This document shows, in pieces, positions 9,189-63,822 of a stretch of 64,000 bases of DNA. The notes under the pieces were generated by a model. The model worked only from the letters and a program-made list of their open reading frames with translations. It did no database searches and had not been told where the DNA came from. The stretch's first letter is position 1; each line of letters begins with the position of its first letter. Origin of the DNA: Sedimenticola selenatireducens DSM 17993 (GTDB taxonomy: Bacteria; Pseudomonadota; Gammaproteobacteria; Chromatiales; Chromatiaceae); the NCBI RefSeq assembly GCF_000428045.1, contig NZ_ATZE01000022.1, positions 15,148-79,147 on the forward strand, written 5' to 3'. Position numbers and translations under genes: made by a program.

Positions 9189-9232
9189 ATGGCTCCGTCC
9201 CAGTTACCTGTTGCGTGAGGGGCGGTGATTTT

Positions 9233-10205: not shown

Positions 10206-10206
10206 T

Positions 10207-43544: not shown

Positions 43545-44687
43545 TCAGGATGGAAAGCTGCGCATCACCACTGAAATGAGTTCGCTTTGTCGGTGGGTGT
43601 TGGTTTTTTTGAAAATATGTTTCAAGTGAGATTTCAAGGTTTCACGAGAAATTTTCATGGCATCGGCAATCTCCTTGCCGGTATAACCCTGAACCAGCAT
43701 GATCGTTACCTTGGTTTCCGACACCGTCAAGTTGTAGCGGTGTCGGATCAATTCCTCCCTGGATTCACTAGCGGCATCAGGATCATGAATAAAAATAACA
43801 ACCGCATTATCACGCTTACTATTGATATTTGTTTGTTCATAGGCTGGTGCAATCAGCAATTCAAAGGGGCGTTTTCCTGATGGGCGGAGAACAGGAAAGG
43901 ACCGGCCATGGGTGATGGCTTCACCCTGAATCGTTTTGCATATGCCATTGATAAGTCTATAGAGCGCAGTATCCTCGCCGGGAAGCATGGTGTGGAGCTC
44001 ATGATTTCTGAGATGCAGTCCATCTGCCCGTTCAAGCATCACTCTTGCTGCATCATTGATTTCCAGTACCTGGCCAGAGATATCCAGAAGTACAACGCCT
44101 TGAAGAACCGTGTCGACAACTCTGGATAGCCGGTCAAGTCGCGCATCTATATGAGAAATTTTTGTGTGCAGCTGTAACGCGGTTTGCAGGTGAGGAAGTA
44201 TGAGTTCGCAGAACCTCAATCGACTTGCCGGATCCAAATGTCGCTTATCCTTGGCATAGTGTAGAGCGATAGTTGAATGTACCTGTCCCGTTTTTTGTAA
44301 GGTGATTCGGATGGCATTCCGAACCGTTAAACCTTGTGGTGACACATGATCATTGAAGAATTCACCCTTCTCCACCTCTTTATCGGGGATCAGATCAGCT
44401 AGCAAACCCAGCGTACCGGGGTTAGGCAGTAGCGACGGGTGGATGGAGATATATGGGTTGATGTACTGGTAGTAAGCGTCATACTCCTGTGCATACCGCT
44501 CTTCCAGGTTGATGCAGCACTCCAGATTTGTCTGGCGTATGGATGAGTTGTGGTGAACGAACAATCCCTGGTCTGCACCGACGGTTTGACAGATTGCCGT
44601 TATGACGTTGCGCCAAGCCTCATCATCTCCAGCAGCTTGATAGATGAGCGGGATCAGGTTGAGTACGGCCTGCTGCATATCCTGCAT
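43545..44687 (-). CDS. LuxR-family transcriptional regulator with PAS-like domain
   Basis: 380 residues. The C-terminal helix-turn-helix is clear: LTVSETKVTIMLVQGYTGKE, then IADAMKISRETLKSHLKHIF and KKTNTHRQSELI (about 317-370). A PAS-like sensory domain precedes it (VLLDISGQVLEINDAARVML, about 198-218). The N-terminal 180 residues form an unknown sensing region. The target is not apparent; neighbours are unrelated. Confidence 0.85.
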   Translation of the reverse strand: MQDMQQAVLNLIPLIYQAAGDDEAWRNVITAICQTVGADQGLFVHHNSSIRQTNLECCINLEERYAQEYDAYYQYINPYISIHPSLLPNPGTLGLLADLIPDKEVEKGEFFNDHVSPQGLTVRNAIRITLQKTGQVHSTIALHYAKDKRHLDPASRLRFCELILPHLQTALQLHTKISHIDARLDRLSRVVDTVLQGVVLLDISGQVLEINDAARVMLERADGLHLRNHELHTMLPGEDTALYRLINGICKTIQGEAITHGRSFPVLRPSGKRPFELLIAPAYEQTNINSKRDNAVVIFIHDPDAASESREELIRHRYNLTVSETKVTIMLVQGYTGKEIADAMKISRETLKSHLKHIFKKTNTHRQSELISVVMRSFPS

Positions 44688-44834
44688 GGCATCGAACCTC
44701 CTTGTCGCGGTTGAACAATCTATCTGTAACCCCAGGTTTCCCGGGCAACTGCGTGAGTCGTTAGCTGCGCTACCCTTAAGAATAGGATATGTATGGCGCC
44801 CTGCAACCTGGCATCAAGGGACCAAAAGTGCGGT

Positions 44835-44859
44835 ATTGGGTTTTTCATCTGACCCCAAT
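44835..44859 (+). repeat. Dispersed repeat with inverted ends
   Basis: ATTGGG, then TTTTTCATCTGACCCCAAT: the best copy, ending with CCCCAAT that pairs with the opening ATTGGG. GGGGTCAGA-type sequences of this kind are often seen around REP-associated tyrosine transposases, as I recall; that association cannot be tested here. Confidence 0.7.
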
Positions 44860-44953
44860 GGTGTTTTCATTTTTATCTTTCGATAGACGATTTATTAAAA
44901 TGACAAGCGCCCACGGATTTCACAATGCAGAGCGCTAAAATAGCCCCATTGTG

Positions 44954-44972
44954 TTTTTCATCTGACCCCAAT
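44954..44972 (+). repeat. Dispersed repeat, TTTTTCATCTGACCCCAAT copy
   Basis: Identical over 19 bases to the copy ending at 44859. It is preceded by CCCCATTG. Confidence 0.7.
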
Positions 44973-45119
44973 TATTTGAAGGGTGTAGGTACTTGATGTT
45001 TCCAATAGATGCGATGTAATAGTCTTCTTGAGATCTGTCATGTCGATGGCCTTTCGGGGCGTGGTGAGTTGCCCATAAACACAGTCTTCCTTAAATGATA
45101 AATTTTGCCGTTTCTGGGC

Positions 45120-45140
45120 TCTATATGACCCCAATTATTA
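45120..45140 (+). repeat. Dispersed repeat, partial copy
   Basis: Keeps TGACCCCAATTATT, identical to the sequence following the copy at 44954, but has lost the TTTTTCATC half. Confidence 0.6.
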
Positions 45141-45276
45141 AGCCTCCTGCCCTAGGGATTGCCCATTGACGCTAAAAGTTACCAGTTTACGGCGAGGGAA
45201 GGAATGCCTTTCTTGTTAGTGGGTTGGATGGGGTAAGGGGAGAAGCGTTCCAGCCCTAAGCGGGTCTGCAAGAAGA

Positions 45277-45304
45277 AGCCGGTATCACGCAAGCGATACC
45301 GGCT
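45277..45304 (-). terminator. Terminator after the acyl-CoA ligase operon
   Basis: AGCCGGTATC (45277-45286), eight-base loop, GATACCGGCT (45295-45304), a perfect 10-base stem. On the minus strand it is followed by TCTTCTT. It lies 67 bases after the ligase stop codon, so it closes the long minus-strand block. A CTGTTTTGT tail on the other side may let it work both ways. Confidence 0.78.
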
Positions 45305-45371
45305 CTGTTTTGTACAGCCTCTTGTTGGTTCAGGGCACCACTACGAGACGCTCCGAGGCCCTGTCAACATG

Positions 45372-47426
45372 TCAACCAAACCGCTTCCGGATCTCCTCCG
45401 CCCGCAGCCGTGCCCGGGTGTAGCTGGACAGCGCCTTGACGCCGGCGCCGCAGGAACGGAACACGCAGACGCCCTGGTCTTTCATTTTTGCCACCAGGGG
45501 TTCGTAGAGTTCGCCGCCATCGACAATCCCGATCAGCGGCTTGTCCAGTGCAGCGACCATCTTCGGCATCTGGTGGGCGATGCTCTGCTCGTCACCCAGG
45601 TCATAGCCGGGGCGCAGCTTGTTCTCCACCAGAGTGCGCATCACGGGTGACATGGGATCGAGTCCCACCACAACGGCGTCGATATTGGGATCCTTCGCCA
45701 TCGCCTCGGCACATTGCAGGTGCGCTTCGTCGTCGGCGCCTGGGTTGATGTCCATCGGGTTACGGATCTCCATCAGGGCGTCCAGCCGTTTCGCTTTCAG
45801 GATCTCGCCAATGCGGGTCTCGGTCTCGGCCGAGAGGGCGGCCACTTCGAGTGAGAAGTTGTCCGACTGAACGTTGTCGGCCATACCCACGGCCTCGAAG
45901 CCGGCGCCGCTGACTGCGCCCAGCCGGTTACCGCCGATGGTCTTGTCGTGCAGGCAGTCGGCTATGTAGAACAGGTCGTTGAAGCGGTCGAAGTCGTCGC
46001 AGACCATGCCGCCGGCCTGGGTGATCACCGCTTCCAGCAGTGCGAAGTCTCCTGCGATCGAGGCGGTGTGGCCCATGGTGGCGTTGGCGCCGAACTCGGA
46101 GCGGCCCGCCTTGTAGAGCACCACTTGCTTGCCCTTCAGCACCGCCTTGCGCACGCCCTTGGCGAAGTGCAGGCCATCCAGGTCGCGGAAGCCCTCGGCA
46201 TAGACGCCGATGGTGTCTATGCCGTCCAGCTCGGCGAAATAGTTGACCATGTCGCCGTGGGTGAGGTCGTTCTGGTTGCCCAGCGCGGTCATGTAGGCGG
46301 GGTCGAGCCAGGGATTATGGCTGATACGGGTGATCATGAAGGCGCCGCTCTGACTGATCAGGGCCGAGTTGCGTTGCGCCTTCTTTTGCCCCTGGGGCAG
46401 GCGGTTCTTGGGGATAAACCAGGTGTCGTACTCACCGGGATGGGAAACGATGCCGAGGCAGTTGCCGCCGAGGAAAACCGGGCCGCCGTCCTCGCTGTGA
46501 TGCGCCTCGTTGATGCGTTTCATCATGGCCGCCGCCGGTTCCCGACTGGCGGTGGTCTCGCCCAGTCCGCCGGGGATCAGCATCACCGCCTCGGCGGCGT
46601 TGGTGGCGATCACCTCGTCCACCAGGTCGTAGACTGCGTCGGCGGCAATGGCAACCACGAACAGGTCCAGCTTGTGCTCCAGGGAGGCGAGGCTCTCGGC
46701 GCATTTGACGCCGTCGATCTCATCCTCGTTGGGGCGGATGATGGTGATCTGCGAAGCCGGGTAGCCACTGGCCAGAATATTCTTGAGGATGATGCGACCG
46801 AAGTTCATCTTGCTGCCGGAGACACCGATAATGCCGATCGATTTTGGATGCAGCATCTTGCCGATTTTCTTTACCGGGCGCGGAGCCGGCACCGGGGTGG
46901 GACGGCTGTACTCGCAGACGCCCTCACCGAGGGCGATCCGGTTATCGATAAAGCTGAACGGGTTGAGTTCCAGGCACTCCAGCACGAACGGGGCGTCCGG
47001 GTTGGTCGGGGCGTAGTGTCGGGCCAGGCTGATGAAGGCGGTGAAGCAGTCGCTCAGGTTCTGGTCGTCTACCTTTCCTTCCAGTTTGCGATAGGCGATG
47101 GTCGCCTTGAATGCCTGCAGCAGATCTTCACCGCTGGTCAGGTCGGCGGCGGCACTGACGCCGCCCTGGCCCTTACGCAGGGCGCTGGCCAGCAGTTCGC
47201 CGGTCTCGCCACCCAGCCCGGCACTGATCACAATGCCGAATTCGCGGGTGTTACGGATAGCGAGGGAGAGCTCAATGCCGGTGCCGGGTTCGACACTGGC
47301 CAGCGGCAGGCCGGCCATCTCCAGCAACTGCCGCAGGTCGGCGTCGTGCAGGGTCTGGTGGCCGTCGCCGGTGCGGGTCTGCAGCAGGGCGGTGATGCCG
47401 TCCAGGTCGTGGGTGTTGTTTGTCAT
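45372..47426 (-). CDS. NDP-forming acyl-CoA synthetase-like protein with partial ATP-grasp domain
   Basis: 684 residues. Residues about 190-330 are the CoA-binding Rossmann domain (KSIGIIGVSGSKMNFGR). Residues about 350-680 are the succinyl-CoA-ligase-like domains with the phospho-accepting histidine H453 in GHTASIAGD. Residues 1-175 match only the second half of an ATP-grasp domain (GIELSLAIRNTREFGIVISA, then LELNPFSF); the ATP-binding first lobe is absent. The usual enzyme couples acyl-CoA hydrolysis to ATP formation. It follows the thiolase on the same strand, after two REP elements, and may act on an acyl-CoA from aromatic breakdown. The reaction is uncertain. Confidence 0.78.
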   Translation of the reverse strand: MTNNTHDLDGITALLQTRTGDGHQTLHDADLRQLLEMAGLPLASVEPGTGIELSLAIRNTREFGIVISAGLGGETGELLASALRKGQGGVSAAADLTSGEDLLQAFKATIAYRKLEGKVDDQNLSDCFTAFISLARHYAPTNPDAPFVLECLELNPFSFIDNRIALGEGVCEYSRPTPVPAPRPVKKIGKMLHPKSIGIIGVSGSKMNFGRIILKNILASGYPASQITIIRPNEDEIDGVKCAESLASLEHKLDLFVVAIAADAVYDLVDEVIATNAAEAVMLIPGGLGETTASREPAAAMMKRINEAHHSEDGGPVFLGGNCLGIVSHPGEYDTWFIPKNRLPQGQKKAQRNSALISQSGAFMITRISHNPWLDPAYMTALGNQNDLTHGDMVNYFAELDGIDTIGVYAEGFRDLDGLHFAKGVRKAVLKGKQVVLYKAGRSEFGANATMGHTASIAGDFALLEAVITQAGGMVCDDFDRFNDLFYIADCLHDKTIGGNRLGAVSGAGFEAVGMADNVQSDNFSLEVAALSAETETRIGEILKAKRLDALMEIRNPMDINPGADDEAHLQCAEAMAKDPNIDAVVVGLDPMSPVMRTLVENKLRPGYDLGDEQSIAHQMPKMVAALDKPLIGIVDGGELYEPLVAKMKDQGVCVFRSCGAGVKALSSYTRARLRAEEIRKRFG

Positions 47427-47464
47427 AGTGCTGTTCCTGATAGTGGTCAGTATGTTTGCTGCAT

Positions 47465-47511
47465 GTAGGAGCGGCGCCCCGCCGCGACTCGGCCCGGGGC
47501 GGGCCTCCTAC
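47465..47511. repeat. REP-like palindrome
   Basis: GTAGGAGCGGCGCCCCG at one end pairs with CGGGGCGGGCCTCCTAC at the other with few mismatches. It is the first of two tandem copies between the thiolase and ligase genes and shares its GTAGGAGC head with the element at 9233. Confidence 0.82.
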
Positions 47512-47569
47512 AGGTTGTTGTTAGCGCGGCAAAAGATGGATAAGACGCAGCCATCGATCGTCGTTGTCC

Positions 47570-47631
47570 GTAGGAGCGGCGCCCCCGCCGCGAATGTGTC
47601 GCGGCATATCGGCCCGGGGCGGGACTCCTAC
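47570..47631. repeat. REP-like palindrome, longer copy
   Basis: Starts GTAGGAGCGGCGCCCC and ends CGGGGCGGGACTCCTAC, in the same orientation as its neighbour and with an added inner hairpin (CGCGAATGTGTCGCGG). It ends 25 bases from the thiolase stop codon. Confidence 0.82.
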
Positions 47632-47656
47632 AGGTCGTTTTTAGCGCTGGGTGGCA

Positions 47657-48862
47657 TCAAACCCGCTCAATCACCACGGCTATGCCCTGGCCAACGCCGA
47701 TACACATGGTGCAGAGGGCATAGCGGCCCCCGCTGCGATGCAGCTGGTAAGTGGCGGTGGTGAGCAGGCGTGCGCCGCTCATGCCAAGAGGGTGTCCCAG
47801 GGCGATCGCGCCGCCGTTGGGATTGATGCGCGCGTCGTCATCGGCCAGTCCCAGGTGCCGTGTCACCGCCAGGGCCTGGGCGGCAAACGCCTCGTTGAGT
47901 TCGATGACATCCATCTGGTCCAGGGTCAGTCCGAGCCGTTTCAGCAGCTTTTCGCTCGCGGGTGCCGGGCCAAAGCCCATGGTGCGCGGCGGAACACCGG
48001 CGGTGGCCATGCCGAGGATGCGGGCGCGAGGTGTCAGCCCCTGTTGCCGGGCCGCCTGCTTGGAGGCGATCAGCAGTGCACAGGCACCGTCATTGACGCC
48101 CGAGGCGTTACCAGCGGTGACGCTCCCCTCGGGATGGACGATGGGGCGCAGTTTCGTCAGCTGATCGATTCGGGTCTGGGGACGGGCGTGTTCGTCCTGA
48201 CTGAAGATGACCGGGTCGCCCTTGCGTTGGGGAAGGGTGACAGGGATGATCTCTTCGGCCAGCCGACCCGCCTCCTGGGCGGCGCCGGTGAGTTGCTGGG
48301 AGCGCAGGGCGAAGGCATCCTGATCCTCGCGACTGATGCCGAACTCGACTGCCAGATTCTCGGCGGTTTCGGGCATTGAATCGACACCGTACATCTCCTT
48401 CATTTTCCTGTTGATGAAGCGCCAGCCGATGGTGGTGTCGAAAATCTCCGCCTGGCGCGAGAAGGCGCTCTCCGCCTTGCCCATGACGAACGGGGCGCGG
48501 GACATGGACTCCACACCGCCGGCAATCATCAATTCCGCCTCGCCGCTCTTGATGGCGCGGGCGGCTGTGCCTACCGCATCCATGCCGGAACCGCACAGCC
48601 GGTTCAGGGTGCCGCCGGGCACGGCATCGGGCAGGCCGGCCAGCAGGGCGGTCATGCGTGCCACGTTGCGGTTATCCTCGCCTGCCTGATTGGCGCAGCC
48701 GTAGAGCAGATCGTCCAGCTGATACCAGTCGACATCAGGATTGCGCTCCATCAGCGCCTGGACCGGCAGGGCGGCAAGATCGTCAGTGCGCAGGGCAGCG
48801 AGGGTGCCGCCATAGCGACCGATCGGGGTGCGGATGGCATCGCAGATAAAGGCTTCGGGCAT
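47657..48862 (-). CDS. Acetyl-CoA C-acyltransferase, 3-oxoadipyl-CoA thiolase (PcaF/PaaJ) type
   Basis: 401 residues from the ATG at 48862, which has AAAGGAGC ahead; the open frame runs on to 49003 through a REP element and is not coding there. Catalytic residues: C90 in LNRLCGSGMDAVGTA, the histidine in GHPLGMSGAR (about 357), and C387 in CTMCIGVGQG. The N-terminus FICDAIRTPIGRYGG and the NRLCGSGMDA form are those of PcaF/PaaJ enzymes that split beta-oxoadipyl-CoA. Here it could serve the lower benzoyl-CoA pathway. Confidence 0.9.
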   Translation of the reverse strand: MPEAFICDAIRTPIGRYGGTLAALRTDDLAALPVQALMERNPDVDWYQLDDLLYGCANQAGEDNRNVARMTALLAGLPDAVPGGTLNRLCGSGMDAVGTAARAIKSGEAELMIAGGVESMSRAPFVMGKAESAFSRQAEIFDTTIGWRFINRKMKEMYGVDSMPETAENLAVEFGISREDQDAFALRSQQLTGAAQEAGRLAEEIIPVTLPQRKGDPVIFSQDEHARPQTRIDQLTKLRPIVHPEGSVTAGNASGVNDGACALLIASKQAARQQGLTPRARILGMATAGVPPRTMGFGPAPASEKLLKRLGLTLDQMDVIELNEAFAAQALAVTRHLGLADDDARINPNGGAIALGHPLGMSGARLLTTATYQLHRSGGRYALCTMCIGVGQGIAVVIERV

Positions 48863-48921
48863 GTTTATGCTCCTTTGGTTGAATGTTGGTTGTCCAATGT
48901 TGTTCAGTGATCCGTCGGCCT

Positions 48922-48984
48922 GTAGAAGCGACGCCCCCGTCGCGAACGTTTCGTGGTCGCATCGGCCCGGGGCGGGCCTCCTAC
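48922..48984. repeat. REP-like palindrome
   Basis: Starts GTAGAAGCGACGCCCCCG and ends CGGGGCGGGCCTCCTAC. It lies between the thiolase and the regulator gene. A further degraded copy of its right half follows near 49010-49035 (CGGCCCGGACGTGGGCCTCC). Confidence 0.8.
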
Positions 48985-49122
48985 AGCAATTGTCTCGGAC
49001 CACGGCGATTTCGGCCCGGACGTGGGCCTCCTGCCGGTATGGCTTGGCTATGGGAATTCAGTGTGGGAAAAGGCAGGTGTAGCCGGTCGGGCCGGCCGGG
49101 TAGCAAAACGAACGCTGGCCGG

Positions 49123-50016
49123 TCAGTTGCCCTGCAAGTAGGGCGCGCACTGCTGAATCAGCACTTCGAGACTCTGCTCGATGGTCTGGCCCGAGGTCAT
49201 GATCTCGAAATTCGCCAGACGGTAGTCCGCTTCCCGTTCATCCAATATCAGTTTCAGATCATCCATCGCCTGCTGGCTGCCTGCCATCGGACGCATGTCA
49301 CCCTGTTCAATGACACGGTTCATGTGATCCTCCGGCAGCGCACGCACCCAGATGGTGTAGAAGTGCTCCCGCAGCATCCGGAAGGTCTCCGCCTCGGAGA
49401 TCAGACTGCCGCCGGTCTCCAGCACCACGTGCCGATAGTCGGTAATGGTCTGCTGCAGCGCCTGCAGCTCCAGCCGGCGGTAGTTGCCCTGGCCGGTGAG
49501 GGAGATCAACTCGCCTATGTCCATCCCCGCCAGTCGTGAGGTCACGTTCTGCAAGCGGATGAACGGCACCTGGAAATGCTTTGCCAGCAGTTCACCCAGG
49601 GTACTTTTGCCACTGCCGCGCATCCCGATCAGGGCTACGCCGCGATAGACGCCCTGGCCAGGCGAGAAGGCGTTACGCAACAGCTTGAACGCCTTCTCCT
49701 GTATCTCGGGAGTGAAGGTATCGATCAACTCGCCGAGCGGCGGGTACTTGATGCAGGTCTCTTCCTGCTCAGGTAGCAGTGAGCCGATACGTACCCCGAG
49801 AGCGTTGGCGATACGTGATAGCAGGGCCAGTGAGACATTGGCGGTGCCGCGTTCCAGCTGGGCCAGATAACGCTCCGAGACGTCCGAATGAAAGGCCAGG
49901 TTCTTGCGTGTCAGCCCGCGCCGCGAACGCACGGAACGCACCCGAGAGCCGACCACTTCGGTGAGCTCTTCAATACCTGCGTCTTCCCCTGTGGGGGGGT
50001 TGATTGTCTCGGTCAT
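49123..50016 (-). CDS. XRE-family regulator with shikimate-kinase-like domain (BoxR/BzdR type)
   Basis: 297 residues. The helix-turn-helix is at about 25-85 (SRRGLTRKNLAFHSDVSERY, then LAQLERGTANVSLALLSRIA). The C-terminal half is a shikimate-kinase-like domain with P-loop GMRGSGKST (131-139). This two-domain layout defines the BzdR/BoxR regulators of benzoate degradation, which bind benzoyl-CoA and derepress their targets. Its place after the pad operon, whose end product is benzoyl-CoA, fits well. BoxR and BzdR cannot be told apart by sight. Confidence 0.92.
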   Translation of the reverse strand: MTETINPPTGEDAGIEELTEVVGSRVRSVRSRRGLTRKNLAFHSDVSERYLAQLERGTANVSLALLSRIANALGVRIGSLLPEQEETCIKYPPLGELIDTFTPEIQEKAFKLLRNAFSPGQGVYRGVALIGMRGSGKSTLGELLAKHFQVPFIRLQNVTSRLAGMDIGELISLTGQGNYRRLELQALQQTITDYRHVVLETGGSLISEAETFRMLREHFYTIWVRALPEDHMNRVIEQGDMRPMAGSQQAMDDLKLILDEREADYRLANFEIMTSGQTIEQSLEVLIQQCAPYLQGN

Positions 50017-50107
50017 GCCTTCACGTTCCTATGAGTAACCTCTCCAGCCTGATATTACCATGATACTGATATTTGTACCTTTTCCACATTGATTTCTGTC
50101 TATATAT

Positions 50108-52441
50108 TTACCCCCCCGCCAGCATCGGTACCAGACTCACTTCGTCGCCATTGTGCAGGGTCATTCCCTGTTCAGAGGCGACTACCAGATGATCGTTGAT
50201 GGAGATACCGAACGAACTGTCGCCCAGCGCCTCAGCCGCCTGCGGCAGGCTGTTTTTCAGGCGCTGCCTCAGCTCCCGGATATCTTTCACCGGCCGGTTG
50301 ATGACCAGGCTGTTGCGTTTGACCCCGGGCAGTTTCGGCAGATTTACCTTCAGGCTGTAACCGGTCAGCACCTGGGAGAGGCTGTCCCACCAGTCGCTGC
50401 TGGGCAGTCCATCCGGTTCGAAGCCGGAAACTTCGTAGAAACGCTGTTTCATCTCATCGAACGCCTGCTGATCGATCTTTTCGCCGCTGAATGGGCCGGC
50501 GCTGTTGGGTTCCTCGAACCAGCGTCTGGGCAGGGTGTCGTCGGCATCGGTGAGACCGCGCAGGGCATTGATCATGCGCTCCACGGCGATCACGTTGCGA
50601 CCGCTGTTGAGCAGGTCGTCGCTGCTCATCTCGATCCCGGTCAGCAACTTGAGCTGCTGCGCAAACTCCTCGGTACCGGTCAGGGACGGCGAGTTGAACA
50701 GCTTGGTGGTAAAGCGGCACATGCCTACCGAGTCGCCGACCGCGAAGGTGTCCTCACAGCGGCGTACCGCGTACTCCTTGCCGCCGTACTGATTCGGTTC
50801 CGCGGAGACCTTGCCGCCATACAGGGCGGTCTTGAACTCGGCGTCGTCGTTGATACGGGCGTTGATCTCCAGGGTGACCCGGTTGCGCAGGTGATCCATG
50901 CCGCGGGTCGCCACCGCCAGCCCCAGGGCAAACGCCTTGAGGATGCGGCTGTCATGGGGGTCGGATTGGAACAGCCCCTTAACGGTCATGCGATAGTCCA
51001 GTGCCTCGGGCGGATACTTGCCGGTGGCCACCGCCTGGCTGGAATCGGCCACCACGTCACCGAAGCCTTCGCGCCGGGCCAGCATGAACAGCAGTTTTTC
51101 TACCGCCTCATAGTTGCCCCAGCTCAGGTCAAGGCCGCCGGTAGTGGTCTGGTCGATAACGCCGCGCTGGTAGAGCTCCATGGCCCAACCGATGGCGCCT
51201 CCGGTACCGGAGGAGTCGAGTCCCAGGTCGTTGAGGATGTTGTTCAGCCGCAGCACCTTTTCCGGTTCCGTGATGCCAATGTTGGGGCCGAACTTGCCGA
51301 CGGTGACATATTCCGGACCATCGCCCTTGTCGTACCGGTCGAATACCCCGTCGCCCTTGATGCCCTGGTAGCTGGCGGTGTGTTCATGCTGCACCTCCGC
51401 CTGCGAGGTATCGTAGCTGGCGTTGCCGGTCACGCCTTTCAGCGCGTTGGCGCCAAAGCCACCCTTGGCGCCGGGAGTCATGTCGTTCAACGGCCGGCAC
51501 TTCACCGGGCACTTGTAACAACCGTCCATGCCGGTGCGGTAGCCGTCGAAATTGTCGGCGTCCAGGTCCTCCACCCAGGTGTTCTCCTGGTTGTTCTTGG
51601 TGCCGATGGCACCAAGGATACGGCTTGGCTTGTACAGAAACGGGGTGCCAACGGTCTTCAGTGCGTTGTGAATCACGCTGGTGCTGATCACCTTGTTGCT
51701 GATCTCCTTGGCTCCCAGCTTGAACTCCTTGGAGGTGGCGATCTTGCCCGGCGCGCCATCGATCATGATCGCCTTGAGACCCAGCGAGCCCATCTTGGCG
51801 CCGGGGCCGCCACGCGCCCAGATCGCCTTGATACCACCCATGATGCCGGCACTCAGGGCCAGGTTCTCGCCGGCGCTGGTGATACGCGCCAGGGCCATGT
51901 CCTTGCGCTCGGTGCGTTCGAAATCTCGCTCGATCGCCTCGGTAACGTCCAGGTTGTCCATCCCGATGTAGGGGGTGGCATCAAGGAACTGCACGTCGTC
52001 GAATGAGATCTTCAACAGGGTCCACTGCGGGTTGCGCCCATAAACTACCAGGTGGTCATAACCGTGGTGGCGCATGAAGGCGGGGAAATAGTCGCCGACA
52101 TTACTGTCGAGGATGGCGTCACTCTCCGGAGAGAGGCTGGTGACATTGCCCCGGGTGGCGGAGGCCATGTAGCCGGTGAAGACCCCGCTGCCGAAGATCA
52201 ACGGTACCTGTGGATCGAGAGGTTTGAGCGGTTCCGCCTGCTCGGTTGCGAGCAGATTGTAGAGCAGGTACATGTTGGCACCGCGGCCGCTGAGGAAGGT
52301 GGTCAACACCTCCTTCGGCAGATAGGCCTTGCGGTGGCTGCGCCGCTCCAGATCCACGAACAGTACAGCACCCTGAGTGGGGTACTGGGGTGCATCATGC
52401 AGGCGGTTCAGCAATGCGTCGACGCGATCTCTGGTATTCAT
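50108..52441 (-). CDS. Aldehyde:ferredoxin oxidoreductase (tungsten type) fused to a C-terminal MoaD/ThiS-like domain
   Basis: 777 residues. The AOR part (1 to about 690) has the cluster cysteines C308, C311 and C315 (GCYKCPVKC) with C575 as the fourth, and cofactor-binding segments such as SGENLALSAG-like 189-199 and GLDSSGTGG (407-415). From about 696 to the end is a ubiquitin-like MoaD/ThiS domain (SLKVNLPKLPG, then HNGDEVSLVPMLAGG) that ends in the Gly-Gly typical of sulphur carriers. It would oxidise phenylacetaldehyde to phenylacetate. It follows the small cysteine-protein gene after 227 bases. No AorA- or AorC-like subunit is encoded nearby. Confidence 0.9.
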   Translation of the reverse strand: MNTRDRVDALLNRLHDAPQYPTQGAVLFVDLERRSHRKAYLPKEVLTTFLSGRGANMYLLYNLLATEQAEPLKPLDPQVPLIFGSGVFTGYMASATRGNVTSLSPESDAILDSNVGDYFPAFMRHHGYDHLVVYGRNPQWTLLKISFDDVQFLDATPYIGMDNLDVTEAIERDFERTERKDMALARITSAGENLALSAGIMGGIKAIWARGGPGAKMGSLGLKAIMIDGAPGKIATSKEFKLGAKEISNKVISTSVIHNALKTVGTPFLYKPSRILGAIGTKNNQENTWVEDLDADNFDGYRTGMDGCYKCPVKCRPLNDMTPGAKGGFGANALKGVTGNASYDTSQAEVQHEHTASYQGIKGDGVFDRYDKGDGPEYVTVGKFGPNIGITEPEKVLRLNNILNDLGLDSSGTGGAIGWAMELYQRGVIDQTTTGGLDLSWGNYEAVEKLLFMLARREGFGDVVADSSQAVATGKYPPEALDYRMTVKGLFQSDPHDSRILKAFALGLAVATRGMDHLRNRVTLEINARINDDAEFKTALYGGKVSAEPNQYGGKEYAVRRCEDTFAVGDSVGMCRFTTKLFNSPSLTGTEEFAQQLKLLTGIEMSSDDLLNSGRNVIAVERMINALRGLTDADDTLPRRWFEEPNSAGPFSGEKIDQQAFDEMKQRFYEVSGFEPDGLPSSDWWDSLSQVLTGYSLKVNLPKLPGVKRNSLVINRPVKDIRELRQRLKNSLPQAAEALGDSSFGISINDHLVVASEQGMTLHNGDEVSLVPMLAGG

Positions 52442-52668
52442 GACATATCCTCTGACATTCTCCTGTTACCGATTCGGCAGCAGGCGGGCCGGGCGTGTAC
52501 AGGCCTCCGTTGCCTGCATACGCCCACTCCCTGTGTAGCTCCCTTTGCCGGAAGCCGCTGTTGATCCATGTTTACCCGAGGGGCGGAGTCAACGCCGACC
52601 CCGACCTTTCGGTGGCGGAGCTGGTCCGCCCTGCGGACGCCCTGCGGGCGCCGATCCGTTTTGAATCG

Positions 52669-52875
52669 CTACTTCTGTTGAAACAGATTGCAACCGAACT
52701 CGCCACGCATCTGTATCCCGGCGAATTCATCATCGGTGCGCACCAGGGCGCGCAGCGGATTTGAGCGCATCTGCTCGAACAGTTCGCAAACGCCGAACCC
52801 TTCCTGCTCATGCTCATTGCGCAGGACGACGTTCTCCTCATAACGCCAGTGACTACAGCTGTGACAAAAGCTCAC
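52669..52875 (-). CDS. Small cysteine-containing protein within the pad cluster
   Basis: 68 residues from a GTG start with AGGAGG six bases ahead, a strong ribosome site. It begins 9 bases after padJ. Four cysteines: C4 and C7 (CHSC), C30 and C62 (FGC). This spacing could bind zinc or an iron-sulphur cluster. No signal peptide. I do not recognise the family. The tight spacing between padJ and the aldehyde oxidoreductase gene supports a role in that pathway, possibly as an electron carrier or cofactor-handling protein. Confidence 0.78.
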   Translation of the reverse strand: MSFCHSCSHWRYEENVVLRNEHEQEGFGVCELFEQMRSNPLRALVRTDDEFAGIQMRGEFGCNLFQQK

Positions 52876-52884
52876 GAGTGCCTC

Positions 52885-54195
52885 CTATTTTTTTCGCAGA
52901 TCGCGAACCCGAATGGCCTTGCCCTGGGAACGGGGAACCTCGCCGGTATCCAGTACGTTGACTGTACAGGTCACACCGATCATCGACTTGATGTGGTGTT
53001 TCACTTCCGCGCCGAGCGCCTTTCTGTCACCGATGAAATCGGGTTCCGGCTCGATATCCACGCTCAGGGTGTCCATGATGCCCTCACGCTGGATCACCAG
53101 CTGGTAGTGGGGCGCCACGCCGGCAACACTCACCAGCACCGACTCGATCTGTGACGGATAGACGTTGACGCCGCGGATGATCATCATGTCGTCGTTGCGA
53201 CCGGTGACGCGCAGGATGCGCACATGGGAGCGGCCGCAGCTGCACGGCTCATCGGTCAGCTTGGTGATGTCGTGAGTACGGTAGCGGATGATCGGCAGCG
53301 CTTCCTTGGTCAGGGTGGTGATCACCAGTTCGCCCACCTCGCCATAGGGCAGGGGCTGCAGCGTTTCGGGATCGACGATCTCGAACAGGAAGTGATCCTC
53401 CCAGCCGTGCAGGCCGTTCTGCTCGGTACATTCGCAGGCCACGCCCGGGCCCATGATCTCGGACAGGCCATAGATATCCATCGCCTTCACGCCAAGCTGT
53501 TTCTCCAGCTCGCCACGAATCTCGTCGCTCCAGGGCTCGGCACCGAATATGCCTACGCGCAGTGGTCCGGCCGCCAGGTCCACGCCCTCACTCCTGGCCA
53601 CCTCGGCTATGTTGAGGGCGTAGGAGGGGGTGGAGAGCAGTACGTGGGAGCCAAAATCGCTCATCACCGCAATCTGCTTCTCGGTATTGCCACCGGACAT
53701 GGGGGTGACGGTGCACTTCAGCCGCTCGGCACCGTAATGGGCGCCCAGCCCGCCGGTGAACAGGCCGTAACCATAGGCGTTGTGCACAATGTCGCCGGGG
53801 CGGGCGCCGGCACAGGAGATGCTGCGTGCCATCAGGTCGGCCCAGTTATTGATGTCCCCATCGGTGTAACCAACCACGGTCGGCTTGCCGGTGGTGCCGG
53901 AAGAGGCGTGCAGCCGGGAGATCTGTTCCCGGGGCACGGCGAACATGTTGAACGGGTAGGCGTCGCGCAGATCGTTCTTTACCGTGAAGGGAAACTTGGC
54001 GAGATCTTCCAGGTTTTCCAGGTCATGAGGCTTCACACCCTGTGCATCGAACGCCTCCCGATAGTGCGGGACGTTGTCATAGGCGTGCTGCAGGCGTGTC
54101 TTCAGTCGCTGCAACTGCAGTTGCAACAACTGCTCACGCGGCATGCATTCGGCTTCTTGATCAAAATAATAATTATCGGCACCAGTATCTGACAT
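52885..54195 (-). CDS. padJ: Phenylacetate--CoA ligase
   Basis: 436 residues, the length of PaaK/PadJ ligases. The adenylate-forming motif SSGTTGKP (98-105) is intact, followed by YGYGLFTGGLGAHYGAERL, YGLSEIMGPGV and the C-terminal GKAIRVRDLRK. It converts phenylacetate, ATP and CoA to phenylacetyl-CoA, AMP and pyrophosphate in the cytoplasm. It is the last pad gene, 25 bases after padI. The pad name is used rather than paaK because of the operon. Confidence 0.94.
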   Translation of the reverse strand: MSDTGADNYYFDQEAECMPREQLLQLQLQRLKTRLQHAYDNVPHYREAFDAQGVKPHDLENLEDLAKFPFTVKNDLRDAYPFNMFAVPREQISRLHASSGTTGKPTVVGYTDGDINNWADLMARSISCAGARPGDIVHNAYGYGLFTGGLGAHYGAERLKCTVTPMSGGNTEKQIAVMSDFGSHVLLSTPSYALNIAEVARSEGVDLAAGPLRVGIFGAEPWSDEIRGELEKQLGVKAMDIYGLSEIMGPGVACECTEQNGLHGWEDHFLFEIVDPETLQPLPYGEVGELVITTLTKEALPIIRYRTHDITKLTDEPCSCGRSHVRILRVTGRNDDMMIIRGVNVYPSQIESVLVSVAGVAPHYQLVIQREGIMDTLSVDIEPEPDFIGDRKALGAEVKHHIKSMIGVTCTVNVLDTGEVPRSQGKAIRVRDLRKK

Positions 54196-54220
54196 GGTGT
54201 CACACTCCTCGTTGTATTTT

Positions 54221-55552
54221 TTAGTTTAGTCCGGCAAAGCGTTTTAGGGATTTCACCCGTTCATTGACCTGCTCCTGTATGTGAGCCAACTGCTCTTTGC
54301 TCACATGGCGGTACTTGCCACTCAGGTTCAGATAAGCCTCGACCGGCAGGGGGTTATCGATGGAGTGGGTGAAGCGCAGTTCACCCCCCCGCTCATACTC
54401 CCAGAGGGGAGCAAAGTTGGTCTCCACGCCCTTGCGGCAGACCTCGATGGTCTGGGACGACGGGAAGCGCCAGCCGGTGGGACAGGGAGAGTAGATGTGC
54501 AGATAGGCAAAGCCGCGTTCGGAGGCGGCCAGTGCCTTGTCCAGTTTTTCATAATAGTCCTCAACGAAGGCGGTAGAGGCGGTGGCCACGTACTCGCAGT
54601 TGTGGTTCATCATGATCATGGCGAGATTTTTCTGGCTGGTGCGCTTGCCTTTCATCTCGGTGCCCACCGGCGTGGTGGTGGTCCAGGAGCCGTAGGAGGT
54701 GCTGCCGGATGCCTGCATGCCGGTGTTCATGTAGCCTTCGTTGTCGACACAGATAAACAGGATCTGATCATTGCGCTCGGCCGCACCGGAGAGCGACTGG
54801 AAGCCCACGTCACCGGCTCCGCCATCGCCCGCCAGTGCCATGGCGGTGACATTGCGGCCCATGCGGTTGTACTGCTTTTTCACCCCCGCCAGCATCGAAG
54901 CAGTGTTGGTCAGCAGCGGATGGAATACCGGGACCTTGGTGCCGGTGGTGCCGTTGAATCCGACTGAACCCATGCCGGGGATGCAGCCGGGCGGGGTGGC
55001 CAGCACCGTGTCGGGTCCCACCTTGCGCAACGAGTGGCGCATGATCATCTCGGAGTTGCAGCCCTGACAGGCGGAGAGCCCGGGTACGAACAGGTCTTCC
55101 CGCTCATGCTGCTCGTTGAAAATACTGGCCGAGGTGATATAGGTCAGCGCGCCGCTCGGGCACGCCTTGACGCAGGCCGGGTCGCCATCGCAATGATCGC
55201 ACTTGGCCACATGCTTCAGTTCGGCGTTGTAGGTGATGCCGCCGTAGGTACAGCCGACGGTGCAGAGCAGGCAGTCGATACAGAGACTCTCGTCCCAGTC
55301 GATCAGGCCGGTCTCCGGGTTCTTGGTCAGGGCGGTGGAGGGGCAGCTCTTGGTGCACTCCGGGTCGCCGCATTGACGGCACAGGGCCAGTTCCGGAGGG
55401 TTGCCGTTGAAGCCGGCGACAATCTTGATCCGTGAGTGCAGCAGGTCGTCGGTACCTGCCTTGATCTGGGAACAGGCGGTCATGCAGGCATTGCAGTCGT
55501 TGCACAGTTCGCAGCGCGACGGATCGAAGGCGATGGTGTTATAAGCGGTCAT
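54221..55552 (-). CDS. padI: Phenylglyoxylate:acceptor oxidoreductase, TPP-binding/iron-sulphur subunit
   Basis: 443 residues. Residues 1-140 are a ferredoxin-like region with four CxxC-type clusters (from C14; C58-C70; C91-C101; C118-C131). Residues about 155-443 are the beta subunit of a 2-oxoacid oxidoreductase, with C162/C165/C190 and the TPP motif GDGGAGD (242-248). With PadE-PadH it oxidises phenylglyoxylate to benzoyl-CoA and CO2, reducing NAD. The fusion of ferredoxin and TPP domains is the known PadI layout. Confidence 0.93.
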   Translation of the reverse strand: MTAYNTIAFDPSRCELCNDCNACMTACSQIKAGTDDLLHSRIKIVAGFNGNPPELALCRQCGDPECTKSCPSTALTKNPETGLIDWDESLCIDCLLCTVGCTYGGITYNAELKHVAKCDHCDGDPACVKACPSGALTYITSASIFNEQHEREDLFVPGLSACQGCNSEMIMRHSLRKVGPDTVLATPPGCIPGMGSVGFNGTTGTKVPVFHPLLTNTASMLAGVKKQYNRMGRNVTAMALAGDGGAGDVGFQSLSGAAERNDQILFICVDNEGYMNTGMQASGSTSYGSWTTTTPVGTEMKGKRTSQKNLAMIMMNHNCEYVATASTAFVEDYYEKLDKALAASERGFAYLHIYSPCPTGWRFPSSQTIEVCRKGVETNFAPLWEYERGGELRFTHSIDNPLPVEAYLNLSGKYRHVSKEQLAHIQEQVNERVKSLKRFAGLN

Positions 55553-55567
55553 AAATCTGTTCTCCCG

Positions 55568-56821
55568 TTATCGCCAGGTGCTGGACATGAGGGCGCGGCC
55601 GGTTTCCAGCGGTCGGGCGATAAAGGCATCTTTTACCGGGGTGAGATCGATCTTGCGCAGGATCAGTTGCCACATGATGCCGGCATCCATCTCTTCATTG
55701 ATGCTGGAGATGCCATGCAGCCGGTTATCCTTGAGCAGGATCTTCAGGTAGCGCTGGTTATCGTCATCGGTCCGGGTCAGTTCTTCCAGTTGCGCATCGG
55801 CCATGCACTGGCCGACCGAAATCGCCTGTTGGCCGAAGAAGGTGTAGGTGTTGATCGGCACACCGCCCACGTAGGGTGCGAGTGCATGATCCTCGGCCAT
55901 ATCCATGGCGGCAATCGCGCCCTGGGTAACGGCATCCGGCAGGATGCCCATCATCACCTTGTCCTCGCCATAGAAGTCGGCGGCCTGGGCGACATCGCCG
56001 GCGGCCCAGATATTCGGTGCGTCGGTGCGCATGTTGCGATCCACCAGGACGCCCTGGTCCACCTGGACCGAGGTGCCCTTGAGATAATCGAGTTGCGGTT
56101 TCACGCCGGTGGCTACCAGCAGCAGGTCGGCCTCCAGGCTGTTGCCATTCTCCAGGGTGATCCGACAGCCGTTATCCTGTGATTCAACTTTAACTACCCG
56201 GCTACCCATCACCATGTGGATGCCGTTGTCGTTGAAGGCGGTCTCGATGACCGAAGCGGCGCGCGGGTCGAAATAACCCGGCAGCACCTGGTCACACATC
56301 TCCACGATGGTGACATCGAGACCGGCGTGGCGCAGGTTCTCCGCGCCGTGCATGCCGATCAGACCGGCACCCAGCACCACGGCGCGCTTTGCCTTGCCGG
56401 CATGCTCACGCAGATCAATGGCGTGCTGCATGGTGCGCAGGACATGGAACGGTGTCTCGCTGAGTCCCGGAATCGGCGGGATGATCGGGTCGGCCCCGGT
56501 GGCCAGCAGCAGTTTTTCATACTGCCACTGGTCGCCGGATTTGAGGCTGGCGACCCGGTCGTTCTCATTAATGGCCACCAGTTCGTTGTCGCTGATCAGG
56601 GTGACGTTGTGTTGGGTGAAATAATCCGCCTTGCGCAGCACCACCCGCTCCGGGGCACTCTGTCCCGACACCACGTAGGGCAGGATGGTGGGTGAGTAGG
56701 GTGCGTGGGCATCGCGGGTCACCAGGGTGATGGGGGATGTCTCATCCACCAGGCGAATCCGGTGGACCGCTTCCAGGCCGGCATGACTGGCACCGGCGAT
56801 GAGATAGTGGGTCGTGTTCAT
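55568..56821 (-). CDS. padH: Phenylglyoxylate:acceptor oxidoreductase, FAD/NAD(H)-binding subunit
   Basis: 417 residues. The FAD motif GASHAG (10-15) opens the protein and the NAD motif VVLGAGLIGMHGA lies near residue 148; the later GDVAQAADFY matches the flavin-binding GD box. It resembles NADH:rubredoxin/ferredoxin reductases and should pass electrons from the iron-sulphur subunits to NAD. It is 10 bases after padG. Confidence 0.92.
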   Translation of the reverse strand: MNTTHYLIAGASHAGLEAVHRIRLVDETSPITLVTRDAHAPYSPTILPYVVSGQSAPERVVLRKADYFTQHNVTLISDNELVAINENDRVASLKSGDQWQYEKLLLATGADPIIPPIPGLSETPFHVLRTMQHAIDLREHAGKAKRAVVLGAGLIGMHGAENLRHAGLDVTIVEMCDQVLPGYFDPRAASVIETAFNDNGIHMVMGSRVVKVESQDNGCRITLENGNSLEADLLLVATGVKPQLDYLKGTSVQVDQGVLVDRNMRTDAPNIWAAGDVAQAADFYGEDKVMMGILPDAVTQGAIAAMDMAEDHALAPYVGGVPINTYTFFGQQAISVGQCMADAQLEELTRTDDDNQRYLKILLKDNRLHGISSINEEMDAGIMWQLILRKIDLTPVKDAFIARPLETGRALMSSTWR

Positions 56822-56831
56822 CGGGTGCTCC

Positions 56832-58070
56832 TCAATCGTTCTCGTTCAGCCACACCGGGCCGTCGAATTCAGTACCCGCCAGCAATTGCGCGGTGCGCTC
56901 GATGGCGCGGGCGAAGTGGCCTTCGGTCAGGTCGGCACCGGCCAGTCCGCCAATGAAGGAGCCGGAGGCAACCGGTTTGCCGGCGCGGTAGAGGCAGCTC
57001 AGTACCTCCTGGTAGAGCGGTCCGCAATCCCAGCCGTAGTGCACAGAGCGATCCACCACGCCGACCGCCTCGACCTTTTTCAGGGCGCGGGTCATGGCCT
57101 CGACGGGGAACGGGCGGAAGGTCTTGATCTTGATCAGGCCGACCCGTTCACCGCGTAGCCGGGCGCTGTCGATGGCATCCTTGGCGGCACCGGTCATGGA
57201 GCCGATGGTGACCAGGGCGTAGTCGGCGTCATCCAGCCGATACTCCTCCACCAGCGGGGCATAGTCGCGACCGAAAATATCCGCCCAGTCGGCATGGGCC
57301 TGTTCGATCACGCCGAGGGCGTTCTGCATGCCTTCACAGAGACCCTTGCGATAGGCGACGAACTTGCTCGGCCCCGGACCGCCGGCGCCACCGGTGAGCG
57401 GATCGACGGCCATGGGCCGCATGGGATCCAGTGCCACATGCCAGTTGACGTCCTTCTCGCCCAGGTAGTCATCCACAGCGGACTGCTCCGGCACGTCCAC
57501 CTGGGTGACGCCGTAGGAGAGATAGTTGCCGTCATGGCAGATATTCACCGGCAGCATCACGTCGTGATGCTCGGCAATGCGGTAGGCCATGATGGTGGTG
57601 TCCAGCACCTCCTGCACGGTCTCACAGTAGATCTGGATCCAGCCGGTCTCCTTCATGGTCATGGCGTCCTGCTGGCCACCCCAGACGCATTGCGGGGTGA
57701 TGCCGTCGCGGGTGACCAGCGAGGCGACGATCGGCAGGCGCATGCCCGGCGTGCGCCAGTAGGGTTCAAACATGAAGGCGAGACCGGGACCGCAGGTGGC
57801 GGTATAGGTGCGGCCACCCGCGAGGGCGGCGCCGTGCAGGGCGGAGAGCACGCTGTGCTCACCCTCCACGTTCATCAGTTCCGCCTGTATCTTGCCGTCG
57901 GCAATAAACTGGGAGACGTACTCCACCAGCGAGGACTGGGGGGTGATCGGATACACCGCCACCAGGTCGGGGCGGGCCAGGGCGACGGCCCAGGCGGCCG
58001 CCTCGTTGCCGTCACAGACAATGGACTGGGCGCAGCCGGGGTGTTTCATCTTCAGGGCAGGCGTGGCCAT
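56832..58070 (-). CDS. padG: Phenylglyoxylate:acceptor oxidoreductase, alpha subunit
   Basis: 412 residues. The alpha-subunit pyrimidine-binding motif YPITPQSSLVEYVSQFI (40-56) and CDGNEAAAWAVALARPDLVA ahead of it are clear. The rest follows pyruvate:ferredoxin oxidoreductase alpha subunits. Its start overlaps the padF stop by one base. Confidence 0.93.
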   Translation of the reverse strand: MATPALKMKHPGCAQSIVCDGNEAAAWAVALARPDLVAVYPITPQSSLVEYVSQFIADGKIQAELMNVEGEHSVLSALHGAALAGGRTYTATCGPGLAFMFEPYWRTPGMRLPIVASLVTRDGITPQCVWGGQQDAMTMKETGWIQIYCETVQEVLDTTIMAYRIAEHHDVMLPVNICHDGNYLSYGVTQVDVPEQSAVDDYLGEKDVNWHVALDPMRPMAVDPLTGGAGGPGPSKFVAYRKGLCEGMQNALGVIEQAHADWADIFGRDYAPLVEEYRLDDADYALVTIGSMTGAAKDAIDSARLRGERVGLIKIKTFRPFPVEAMTRALKKVEAVGVVDRSVHYGWDCGPLYQEVLSCLYRAGKPVASGSFIGGLAGADLTEGHFARAIERTAQLLAGTEFDGPVWLNEND

Positions 58071-58378
58071 TACTTGATCTCCTCAATCATCTTGATGGCA
58101 TTGTGCGGACACTCCACGGCACAGATACCGCAACCCTTGCAGGTGTCGTAGTTGACATCGAACCAGGCCGGCTTCTCGACGATGCACTGCACGGGGCAGA
58201 AGATCCAGCAGATGGCGCACTTGACGCATTTGGCGCGGTCGACGATTGGCCGCTCGGCGCGCCAGTCGCCTGGCAGCATGCCGTTCTCGATGATGGCGAC
58301 CGGGCAGAGGTTGTCCGGCACCTGGCTCATATCGGGACGCGGGTGGGCTTTCATTTTGTAATCCGGGTCGTTGCTCAT
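58070..58378 (-). CDS. padF: Phenylglyoxylate:acceptor oxidoreductase, delta (2[4Fe-4S]) subunit
   Basis: 102 residues from the ATG at 58378, which overlaps the padE stop (ATGA). Two ferredoxin motifs: C51-C54-C57-C61 and C80-C83-C86-C90. Longer frames upstream are not coding. It carries electrons between the TPP subunit and the NAD-linked subunit. Confidence 0.93.
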   Translation of the reverse strand: MSNDPDYKMKAHPRPDMSQVPDNLCPVAIIENGMLPGDWRAERPIVDRAKCVKCAICWIFCPVQCIVEKPAWFDVNYDTCKGCGICAVECPHNAIKMIEEIK

Positions 58379-58977
58379 ACCCACTCTCCTCCCTGTCGCT
58401 GTTTCACTATTGATTCGTTGAAGCCGCGCTCGACCGCGATCAGATTCTGCTCCAGGCCGGCGTCGCGGAAATTGGCCGACTCCAGTCCGGCGCGCAGTCC
58501 CTCCATGGTGACGATGCCGGTGGCCTTGGCGAAGGCGCCGAGCATAATGGTATTGGTGATGGGGCGGCGGAACACCTCCATGCCAATGGTGACTGCGTCG
58601 CACAGCACCACCCTGGTGACCTGTTCGGGGCAGTTGAGCGACTCGGCCGACTGGCGCGTGGCCTGGATCAGGGTGCTGTTCGGCTGCACCCCGGCAAAGA
58701 TATCCACCGCCTTGGGGATGCTCGGATCGATACAGATAATGTAATCCGGCGCATAGATATTGGTGACCGCCCGCAAGGGTCGATCGGAATAGCGCAAGAA
58801 GGCGGCCACCGGCGCGCCGCGCCGCTCGAAGCCGAAGGCCGGGATGGCGGTGACATGCTGTCCGCTCATGACTATGGCCTTGGCGAGGATCTTGGAGGCG
58901 AGCACCGCGCCCTGTCCGCCGCGACCATGCAGGCGTACCTCGTGGGTGGTTTTTTGTTCTACTGCGGTTATTGTCAT
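58375..58977 (-). CDS. padE: Phenylglyoxylate:acceptor oxidoreductase, gamma subunit
   Basis: 200 residues. The ATG at 58977 overlaps the padD stop (ATGA); the open frame extends far further upstream inside padD, but only this part is homologous. HGRGGQGAVLASKILAKA (17-34) and FERRGAPVAAFLR are gamma-subunit signatures of 2-oxoacid:ferredoxin oxidoreductases. Confidence 0.93.
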   Translation of the reverse strand: MTITAVEQKTTHEVRLHGRGGQGAVLASKILAKAIVMSGQHVTAIPAFGFERRGAPVAAFLRYSDRPLRAVTNIYAPDYIICIDPSIPKAVDIFAGVQPNSTLIQATRQSAESLNCPEQVTRVVLCDAVTIGMEVFRRPITNTIMLGAFAKATGIVTMEGLRAGLESANFRDAGLEQNLIAVERGFNESIVKQRQGGEWV

Positions 58978-63243: not shown

Positions 63244-63255
63244 GGCTGTCTGCCT

Positions 63256-63660: not shown

Positions 63661-63708
63661 TGCCTATGCCTTCGTCTGTTATTGTTCAAGTAAGGGTTTT
63701 GAATCGTC

Positions 63709-63721
63709 TTGTCAGTGACAA
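63709..63721. promoter_or_regulatory. TTGTCA-G-TGACAA palindrome before the pad operon
   Basis: A perfect 13-base palindrome, 48 bases before the thioesterase start, where a repressor would block the promoter. It shares its half-sites with the palindrome at 63823. Confidence 0.6.
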
Positions 63722-63822
63722 TCCGATACAGTTTTCATGTTCGCATTTATTATTATTGATTTAGTTTCAAAATAAACTATTTGGTGCAATCGTCAACCGG
63801 TTTTTGTTCCAATTGAGTTGTT

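Follow-up and report, generated by a model that had tools for sequence, protein, structure and literature searches.

A MoaD-like domain at the C-terminus of a WOR-family catalytic subunit from Sedimenticola selenatireducens and its conservation among Proteobacteria

What does a MoaD-like domain do at the end of a catalytic subunit of the WOR family, whose aldehyde oxidoreductases (AORs) are described as showing little diversity of architecture (PMC1949818; this and further papers are cited from extracts of their text)? The question is raised by a gene of S. selenatireducens DSM 17993 at positions 50108-52441 of a 64,000-nucleotide stretch of contig NZ_ATZE01000022.1, hereafter the window, in which the gene, its parts and the neighbours given with coordinates between 49123 and 63243 are on the reverse strand. 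The open reading frame (ORF), Pfam and fold matches identify its 777-residue product as an AOR/WOR-family catalytic subunit fused to a MoaD-like domain. A first-pass annotation had placed such a fused MoaD/ThiS-like domain here; it had the coordinates right, and Pfam, sequence profiles and a structural model agree with it.

The gene is one intact frame of 777 codons with an ATG start, and homologues align with it from the first residues. Both domains of an AOR/WOR large subunit (WorL) were recognised by Pfam, AFOR_N at residues 25-229 (PF02730, E 5e-44; 51755-52369) and AFOR_C at residues 245-688 (PF01314, E 1.4e-90; 50378-51709). The latter contains C308, C311, C315 and C575, which align with the Pyrococcus furiosus cysteines that we take to be the ligands of the [4Fe-4S] cluster, and all four are kept in every aligned row with a letter at those columns. 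A first AlphaFold2 (AF2) model, built from 16 rows, had low confidence (pLDDT 59.7) and was discarded; the second model, from a 23-row alignment (pLDDT 76.9, pTM 0.85), is usable for the folds and not for the active site. Foldseek matched its body to AOR structures with E <= 1e-27 (TM-score by target 0.83 for 1aor_A and 0.84 for 9g7j_A).

The MoaD/ThiS-like beta-grasp domain occupies residues 694-777 (84 residues; 50111-50362) and ends, as had been annotated, in Gly776-Gly777 (50111-50116), followed by the stop codon. In the whole protein, Pfam ThiS matched residues 718-777 with E 0.0023 and 18.8 bits, under the curated 22.5, and for this reason the tail was tested further. Taken in isolation it scored 23.8 bits, above the Pfam cut-off, and all 24 homologous tails matched ThiS at E <= 0.01 (best 2.8e-11). 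A profile of these 24 tails, compared with solved chains, had as top match the molybdopterin converting factor subunit 1, MoaD (1nvi_D/1fm0_D, E 1.8e-4), presumably the Escherichia coli protein, to the terminal Gly-Gly of which it aligned; other MoaD, ThiS and SAMP chains followed, each matched to its last residue. Among the 12 matches at E <= 0.1, 11 were MoaD/ThiS-like and one was a chance viral chain (E 0.072). Profile comparison of the tail with seven free MoaD/WorX-like proteins gave a 96% probability at 19% identity. The tail of the second AF2 model was likewise matched by Foldseek to MoaD chains with a probability of 1.00 and TM-scores by target of 0.60-0.78, at E-values of only 0.0026-0.065; for 1nvi_D and 1fm0_D the TM-score was 0.78 in both cases (probability 1.00, E 0.0068 and 0.021). 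The two traits of a MoaD/ThiS carrier, a beta-grasp fold homologous to MoaD and a free C-terminal Gly-Gly, are present together; the tail has the sequence features expected of a functional MoaD/WorX domain, for which sulphur carriage is predicted.

The first-pass annotation had considered that a missed stop codon might explain the fusion, which would then be absent elsewhere. A missed stop or sequencing error is ruled out, since all 26 complete C-termini of the subfamily are fused, each with Gly-Gly directly before the stop codon. These are the window protein and those of loci L017-L032, L038, L047-L052 and L116-L117, some of them close kin (the tails of L021 and L029 are identical); omitted were L053, ended by a contig edge, L046, which repeats the L038 protein, and L061-L065, which repeat those of L030, L021, L029, L017 and L022. 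A scan of GTDB genomes returned 22 loci, 17 of which belong to various groups of Proteobacteria and are all fused with Gly-Gly at the stop, the other five being unfused Chloroflexi/Anaerolineales with about 40% identity. In the class survey (369 genomes) the subfamily was found at E <= 1e-100 in nine genomes, with Gly-Gly in all eight complete C-termini and one ended by a contig edge. The order survey (147 genomes) revealed it in six, all with Gly-Gly: the own genome, four of the five other genomes listed for the same genus and a single genome from a different genus in the family. The order of genome G332 (53 genomes) had three, again all with Gly-Gly, one gene having a masked internal stretch. 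Across the phylum survey (398 genomes) the own genome alone had the subfamily, five others matching at E <= 1e-30 with frames of unfused length (616-645 residues). Searches of one-genome groups found no further members, and a scan of viral_contigs for further AORs found none.

The tails are far more divergent than the bodies, with pairwise identities of 24-100% (median 43%, 24 rows) vs 61-98% (median 69%, 16 rows), and only six of 88 tail positions are invariant (T, G, P, G, G, G). Both terminal glycines thus persist where most of the tail diverges, and their codons differ silently among the 14 genes examined. Ratios of non-synonymous to synonymous substitution rates (dN/dS), rough values since dS was high in most pairs, were finite in four Sedimenticola pairs, where they ranged from 0.16 to 0.24 for the tail and from 0.035 to 0.093 for the body; in distant pairs the tail reached 0.63; judged by these ratios, the tail evolves under selective constraint.

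Could such a fusion be common among AORs? For our sample this was ruled out, as the tail profile matched none of 56 unfused frames (30 AorB-type, 20 further WORs, five Chloroflexi and Thermovirga); at E <= 0.01 it recognised 25 of 82 AOR frames, all in the fused group, the 26th member of which, L053, has its tail missing at a contig edge. It should be added that L100 ends in Gly-Gly-Gly and has no MoaD-like tail, and that the long frames of L075, L087 and L089 have ordinary AOR C-termini, so that their extra length is upstream. When 78 AOR bodies, tails removed, were placed in a tree by a quick method without bootstrap and with some long branches outside the fused group, 22 fused rows formed one group (SH-aLRT support 100), with the five Chloroflexi as its sister (97). 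The phylogeny of the bodies thus indicates a single origin of the fusion within the sample, in a clade of Proteobacteria.

Free carriers occur beside unfused relatives. Four of the five Chloroflexi sisters have a separate MoaD-like gene of 83-87 residues with an Ala-Gly-Gly end just upstream of the AOR, at distances from a 26-nt overlap to a 291-nt gap; in the fifth (L034, 4723-5019) the MoaD-like frame upstream of the AOR continues ten codons beyond Gly-Gly, owing either to a genuine extension or to a fault in the assembly. Among 29 AorB-type loci, three (L071, L077 and L079) have a free MoaD-like gene just downstream, within a flank of about 1.5 kb, and on plasmid pTLIE01 of Thermovirga lienii (L054, 155-2227) a MoaD gene lies 15 nt downstream of the AOR in the same frame, with two stops between. 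The free carriers of AorB-type loci and Thermovirga are on the side of the fused tail, whereas that of Chloroflexi is upstream. A single lost stop as the way to fuse the Thermovirga pair proved wrong, given the two in-frame stops. As a separate observation, the MoaD-AOR pair in the Chloroflexi loci L033, L035 and L036 (about 8-15 kb) is near genes for an HMGL-like, aconitase-family, POR-domain, acyl-CoA dehydrogenase or phenylacetate-CoA-ligase-like protein.

A fusion of this kind is already published: Iyer, Burroughs and Aravind (2006) state, in one sentence and one comment to Table 1, that in Azoarcus MoaD is fused carboxyl-terminally to aldehyde ferredoxin oxidoreductase (PMC1779556). The likeness of that protein to the window enzyme, with MoaD at the carboxyl end of an AOR, is one of architecture; a metagenome-assembled genome of Rhodocyclaceae (L027) carries the fused clade. 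The AOR-MoaD architecture has therefore been on record since 2006, whereas a subfamily with a changed active site, as far as we have seen, has not, and among open-licence papers none was found on the distribution, Gly-Gly conservation, neighbourhood or second shell of this clade.

In the extract of the 2026 WOR classification, WorX appears as a separate gene only, and the precise role of the WorX/ThiS-like genes next to WORs is described there as unknown (PMC13328260). The WorX next to class I WORs resembles the window tail in being ThiS-like, linked with a WOR large subunit and given a predicted part in pterin synthesis, but it is a gene of its own, whereas the window enzyme carries the carrier as a domain (PMC13328260); the natural fusion makes the function of such genes directly testable within one protein. 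Class I, 55 of 92 clades in that classification, is defined by the absence of further subunits (PMC13328260), and the window enzyme fits it as a large subunit alone, with no S, N or ABC subunit genes adjoining (a distant partner gene is possible). The annotated lack of electron-transfer and FAD subunits nearby holds insofar as no AorA/AorC-like gene adjoins, the neighbouring Fe-S and FAD proteins scoring as PadI and PadH, but it is not unusual, since class I WORs are ordinarily without them (PMC13328260). AorABC(DE) of Aromatoleum aromaticum belongs to the same AOR family, as a distant relative (24% in Foldseek), and its operon includes the MoaD-like aorD/aorE; it differs in the separate carrier, the extra Fe-S and FAD subunits and the retained Glu313 (PMC6365974, PMC10413684). 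The statement in the first-pass annotation that other aor operons encode the carrier separately is borne out by these genes (PMC6365974) and by a 115-residue protein near a second AOR of the own genome.

Altogether, we lean, by a modest preference, towards an aryl(acet)aldehyde-oxidising WOR whose cofactor is matured with the help of a WorX/MoaD partner kept in cis. A former WorX/MoaD partner would have turned into the C-terminal domain of a WOR-family catalytic subunit; a MoeB-like enzyme would adenylate the terminal glycine of the tail, which would be converted to a thiocarboxylate as in free MoaD, and the tail would then help the single MoaE of the genome to form the dithiolene group of the pterin cofactor. 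Cofactor synthesis or handover would thereby be tied to the tail-bearing apo-enzyme. Direct sulphuration on the enzyme would be one form of this, delivery via a shared MoaE kept close by being just as likely. The mature enzyme would most likely oxidise an aromatic aldehyde arising upstream of the pad pathway, with phenylacetaldehyde as the first candidate, and pass electrons to ferredoxin; the ATP-dependent benzoyl-CoA reductase, for which this contig also has the genes, could be supplied in this way too. We know of no characterised pterin enzyme in which assembly is coupled in cis by a built-in sulphur carrier.

The surroundings of the gene fit this metabolism, as a Pad-type phenylacetate cluster spans 45372-63660 of the window. 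A BzdR/PRK08154-type regulator with helix-turn-helix and shikimate-kinase-like parts (49123-50016) matches NF006015, 'anaerobic benzoate catabolism transcriptional regulator', over the cut-off (E 1.3e-98). On the other side follow a PadJ/PaaK-like phenylacetate--CoA ligase (52885-54195; TIGR02155, E 2.5e-182, 606 bits against a curated cut-off of 646) and the phenylglyoxylate dehydrogenase subunits PadI, beta (54221-55552; NF045766, 790 bits, cut-off 700), PadH, epsilon, FAD/NAD (55568-56821; NF045765, 708 bits, cut-off 475) and PadG, alpha (56832-58070; NF045764, 808 bits, cut-off 700). A molybdopterin oxidoreductase (60508-63243) is matched by general molybdopterin-oxidoreductase models alone, all below their cut-offs; we take it by position to be PadB, and its order with Fe-S and membrane proteins upstream of the window gene fits padB-padD. 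A pcaF-like thiolase and an NDP-forming acyl-CoA-synthetase-like protein are also encoded near the AOR gene. Beyond the window end, the same contig has bcrC, bcrB, bcrA and bcrD (L043, 6414-11072), all four over NCBIfam cut-offs. Of the 12 fused loci that span 10 kb or more, ten contain at least one of pad, bcr or a BzdR-type regulator: pad in L017, L021, L022, L026, L027, L029 and L030, bcr in L023 and L038, and a BzdR-like gene in L024, with none of the three in L025 and L028. The clade thus places a WOR of unassigned reaction in an anaerobic phenylacetate/benzoyl-CoA gene neighbourhood.

The tail would not be the only carrier of its cell. The own genome has three ThiF-family proteins over the cut-off and a single MoaE, beside a free MoaD, so that this MoaE would not be at the disposal of the tail alone. 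The other AOR of the genome is closely homologous to AorB (8c0z_A, 1019 bits) and is encoded in a cluster (L039, contig C35:34000-52000 of the own genome, positions 239-9928) that holds an ABC transporter with a TupA-like binding protein (best model NF041772, E 1.1e-81; its 274 bits fall short of the curated 400), a gene recognised by eye as moeA-like, a pyridine-nucleotide oxidoreductase and the free 115-residue ThiS-family protein with a Gly-Gly end, for which Pfam Ub-Mut7C scores above ThiS. At least one further AFOR_N match was found in all nine class-survey genomes with the fused enzyme. We also noted a fifth ThiS-family match in the own genome (C1:121875-122093; 27.4 bits), in a 226-residue frame on the strand opposite to other open frames.

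The active site was compared in the P. furiosus numbering, which agrees with the residues named in the extract of PMC12096430. The equivalents of Thr243, Glu311 and His448 are all kept, as T266, E377 and H517 (50891-50893). From the second shell of AORs sensu stricto (Thr243, Glu313, Tyr427, His448), Thr and His are therefore retained, whereas Glu313 is replaced by Val379 (51305-51307) and Tyr427 by His496 (50954-50956); moreover, Arg521 takes the place of Tyr452. In an 82-row alignment, the Glu313 column of the 26 fused rows (L046 repeating L038) has V in 21, A in two and T in one, two being uncovered; the residue at this position is T in L116 and V in L117. Elsewhere it is S in all five Chloroflexi, L033, L035 and L036 among them, and E in all 30 AorB-type rows (the second AOR of the own genome and the 29 best-scoring loci returned from the AFOR_N match listing), in Thermovirga and in five alignments of solved WORs; 20 further WORs, hand-picked from lower-scoring AFOR_N rows, the remote ones of which (L096, L110-L115) align poorly, have E in 17, L in two and H in one. 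The Tyr427 column is H in 26 of 26 fused and five of five Chloroflexi rows and Y in 30 of 30 AorB-type rows; that of Tyr452 is R in all fused and Chloroflexi rows, with Y 23, D six and N one in the AorB-type. The loss of Glu313 may be older than the fusion, because, with support of 82-92, the tree puts the two rows with Leu (L097 and L098) and the one with His (L096, badly aligned and on a very long branch) next to the group of fused and Chloroflexi proteins. There is also an insert of about 50 residues (321-371; 51329-51481), the long form of which was seen in the fused clade alone among the fused, Chloroflexi, AorB-type and Thermovirga rows compared: at positions 320-372 there are 53 residues in 22 of 24 covered fused rows, the remaining covered rows having 38 and 50 (two fused rows were uncovered), three in all five Chloroflexi, 18-22 in the 30 AorB-type and eight in Thermovirga.

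Several of these data weigh against an aldehyde-oxidising WOR with its carrier in cis. Proposed AOR mechanisms assign the proton-acceptor role to Glu313 (PMC12096430), and this residue is absent from all 24 fused rows with a letter, L116, L117 and all five Chloroflexi, so that the assignment of aldehyde oxidation may be mistaken; a clade that has lost Glu313 also offers a natural test of these mechanisms. Phenylacetaldehyde as substrate would fit the pad neighbourhood, and the absent glutamate speaks against a plain AOR reaction. For the same reason, of the annotated tungsten-type enzyme oxidising phenylacetaldehyde the AOR family stands, and tungsten and the substrate are less certain. The AF2 model has pLDDT < 50 at the active-site stretches and the insert, and we make no claim on their geometry. 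Furthermore, with a free MoaD and a WorX-like protein in the genome, a carrier in cis is unneeded for supply, and the fused loci contain no homologues of moeB, moeA or tupA at E <= 1e-8 (moaE was not queried, and the WorX query was too divergent to prove absence).

The same changes favour a different reaction, in which the enzyme would be matured as proposed but would have as substrate, instead of simple aldehydes, some other aromatic intermediate in the pad/benzoyl-CoA pathways; we regard this as possible, clearly behind the aldehyde reading. The loss of Glu313, His for Tyr427 and Arg for Tyr452 are fixed in the clade, together with the long insert, and the neighbourhood varies, with pad, bcr or, around L028, xanthine-dehydrogenase-type molybdoenzyme genes and an acyl-CoA synthetase. 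BamB and YdhV clades, said to be without the usual second shell, have other or unknown reactions (PMC12096430). BamB (4z3w, class II benzoyl-CoA reductase) shares with the window enzyme the WOR family, aromatic metabolism and the reported lack of usual second-shell residues (PMC12096430), but it is a weaker sequence match than AORs, and a MoaD tail is unmentioned in the extract on it (PMC12096430). Its reported Cys ligand (PMC12096430) is unseen in the window enzyme, the Val379 stretch of the alignment, in which no BamB row was compared, having no Cys that could correspond to the metal ligand of BamB/YdhV. The kept equivalents of Thr243, Glu311 and His448 also argue for ordinary chemistry, and two characterised aldehyde-active enzymes have His for Tyr427 (PMC12096430). 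Somewhat more speculative is the fuller proposal that a WOR subfamily found in anaerobic degraders of aromatic compounds has exchanged the catalytic glutamate for another active-site chemistry, by which an aromatic intermediate would be oxidised or reduced in a non-standard way, and that it matures its pterin cofactor in cis with the built-in carrier.

Alternatively, the tail might have lost sulphur carriage and serve as a structural or regulatory module for assembly, as degradation tag or in partner docking. The availability of other MoaD-like proteins in the genome would permit this, and the tail dN/dS is 1.7-4.5 times that of the body in six of seven finite pairs, with the reverse in L025/L028 (0.04 vs 0.24). 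We nevertheless consider it unlikely, as the C-terminal Gly-Gly, invariant in 26 of 26, is most readily explained by terminal-glycine chemistry. A ubiquitin-like role, in which the activated tail would couple the enzyme covalently to other proteins, as the archaeal MoaD-like SAMPs act as protein modifiers (PMC2948915), appears very improbable, with no JAB or E2-like domain in the nine window proteins scanned with Pfam (no genome-wide search was made).

Regarding other elements of the region, Rfam had nothing at gathering score in 44000-64000, thus no known riboswitch family is indicated there, and the promoter and terminator scan gave counts near chance. Two 2-oxoacid:ferredoxin oxidoreductase-like gene pairs were also seen, one in the window at 9360-11937, with POR and POR_N in one protein plus a TPP-binding beta subunit, and the other, recognised by eye, at 622-3224 of L043.

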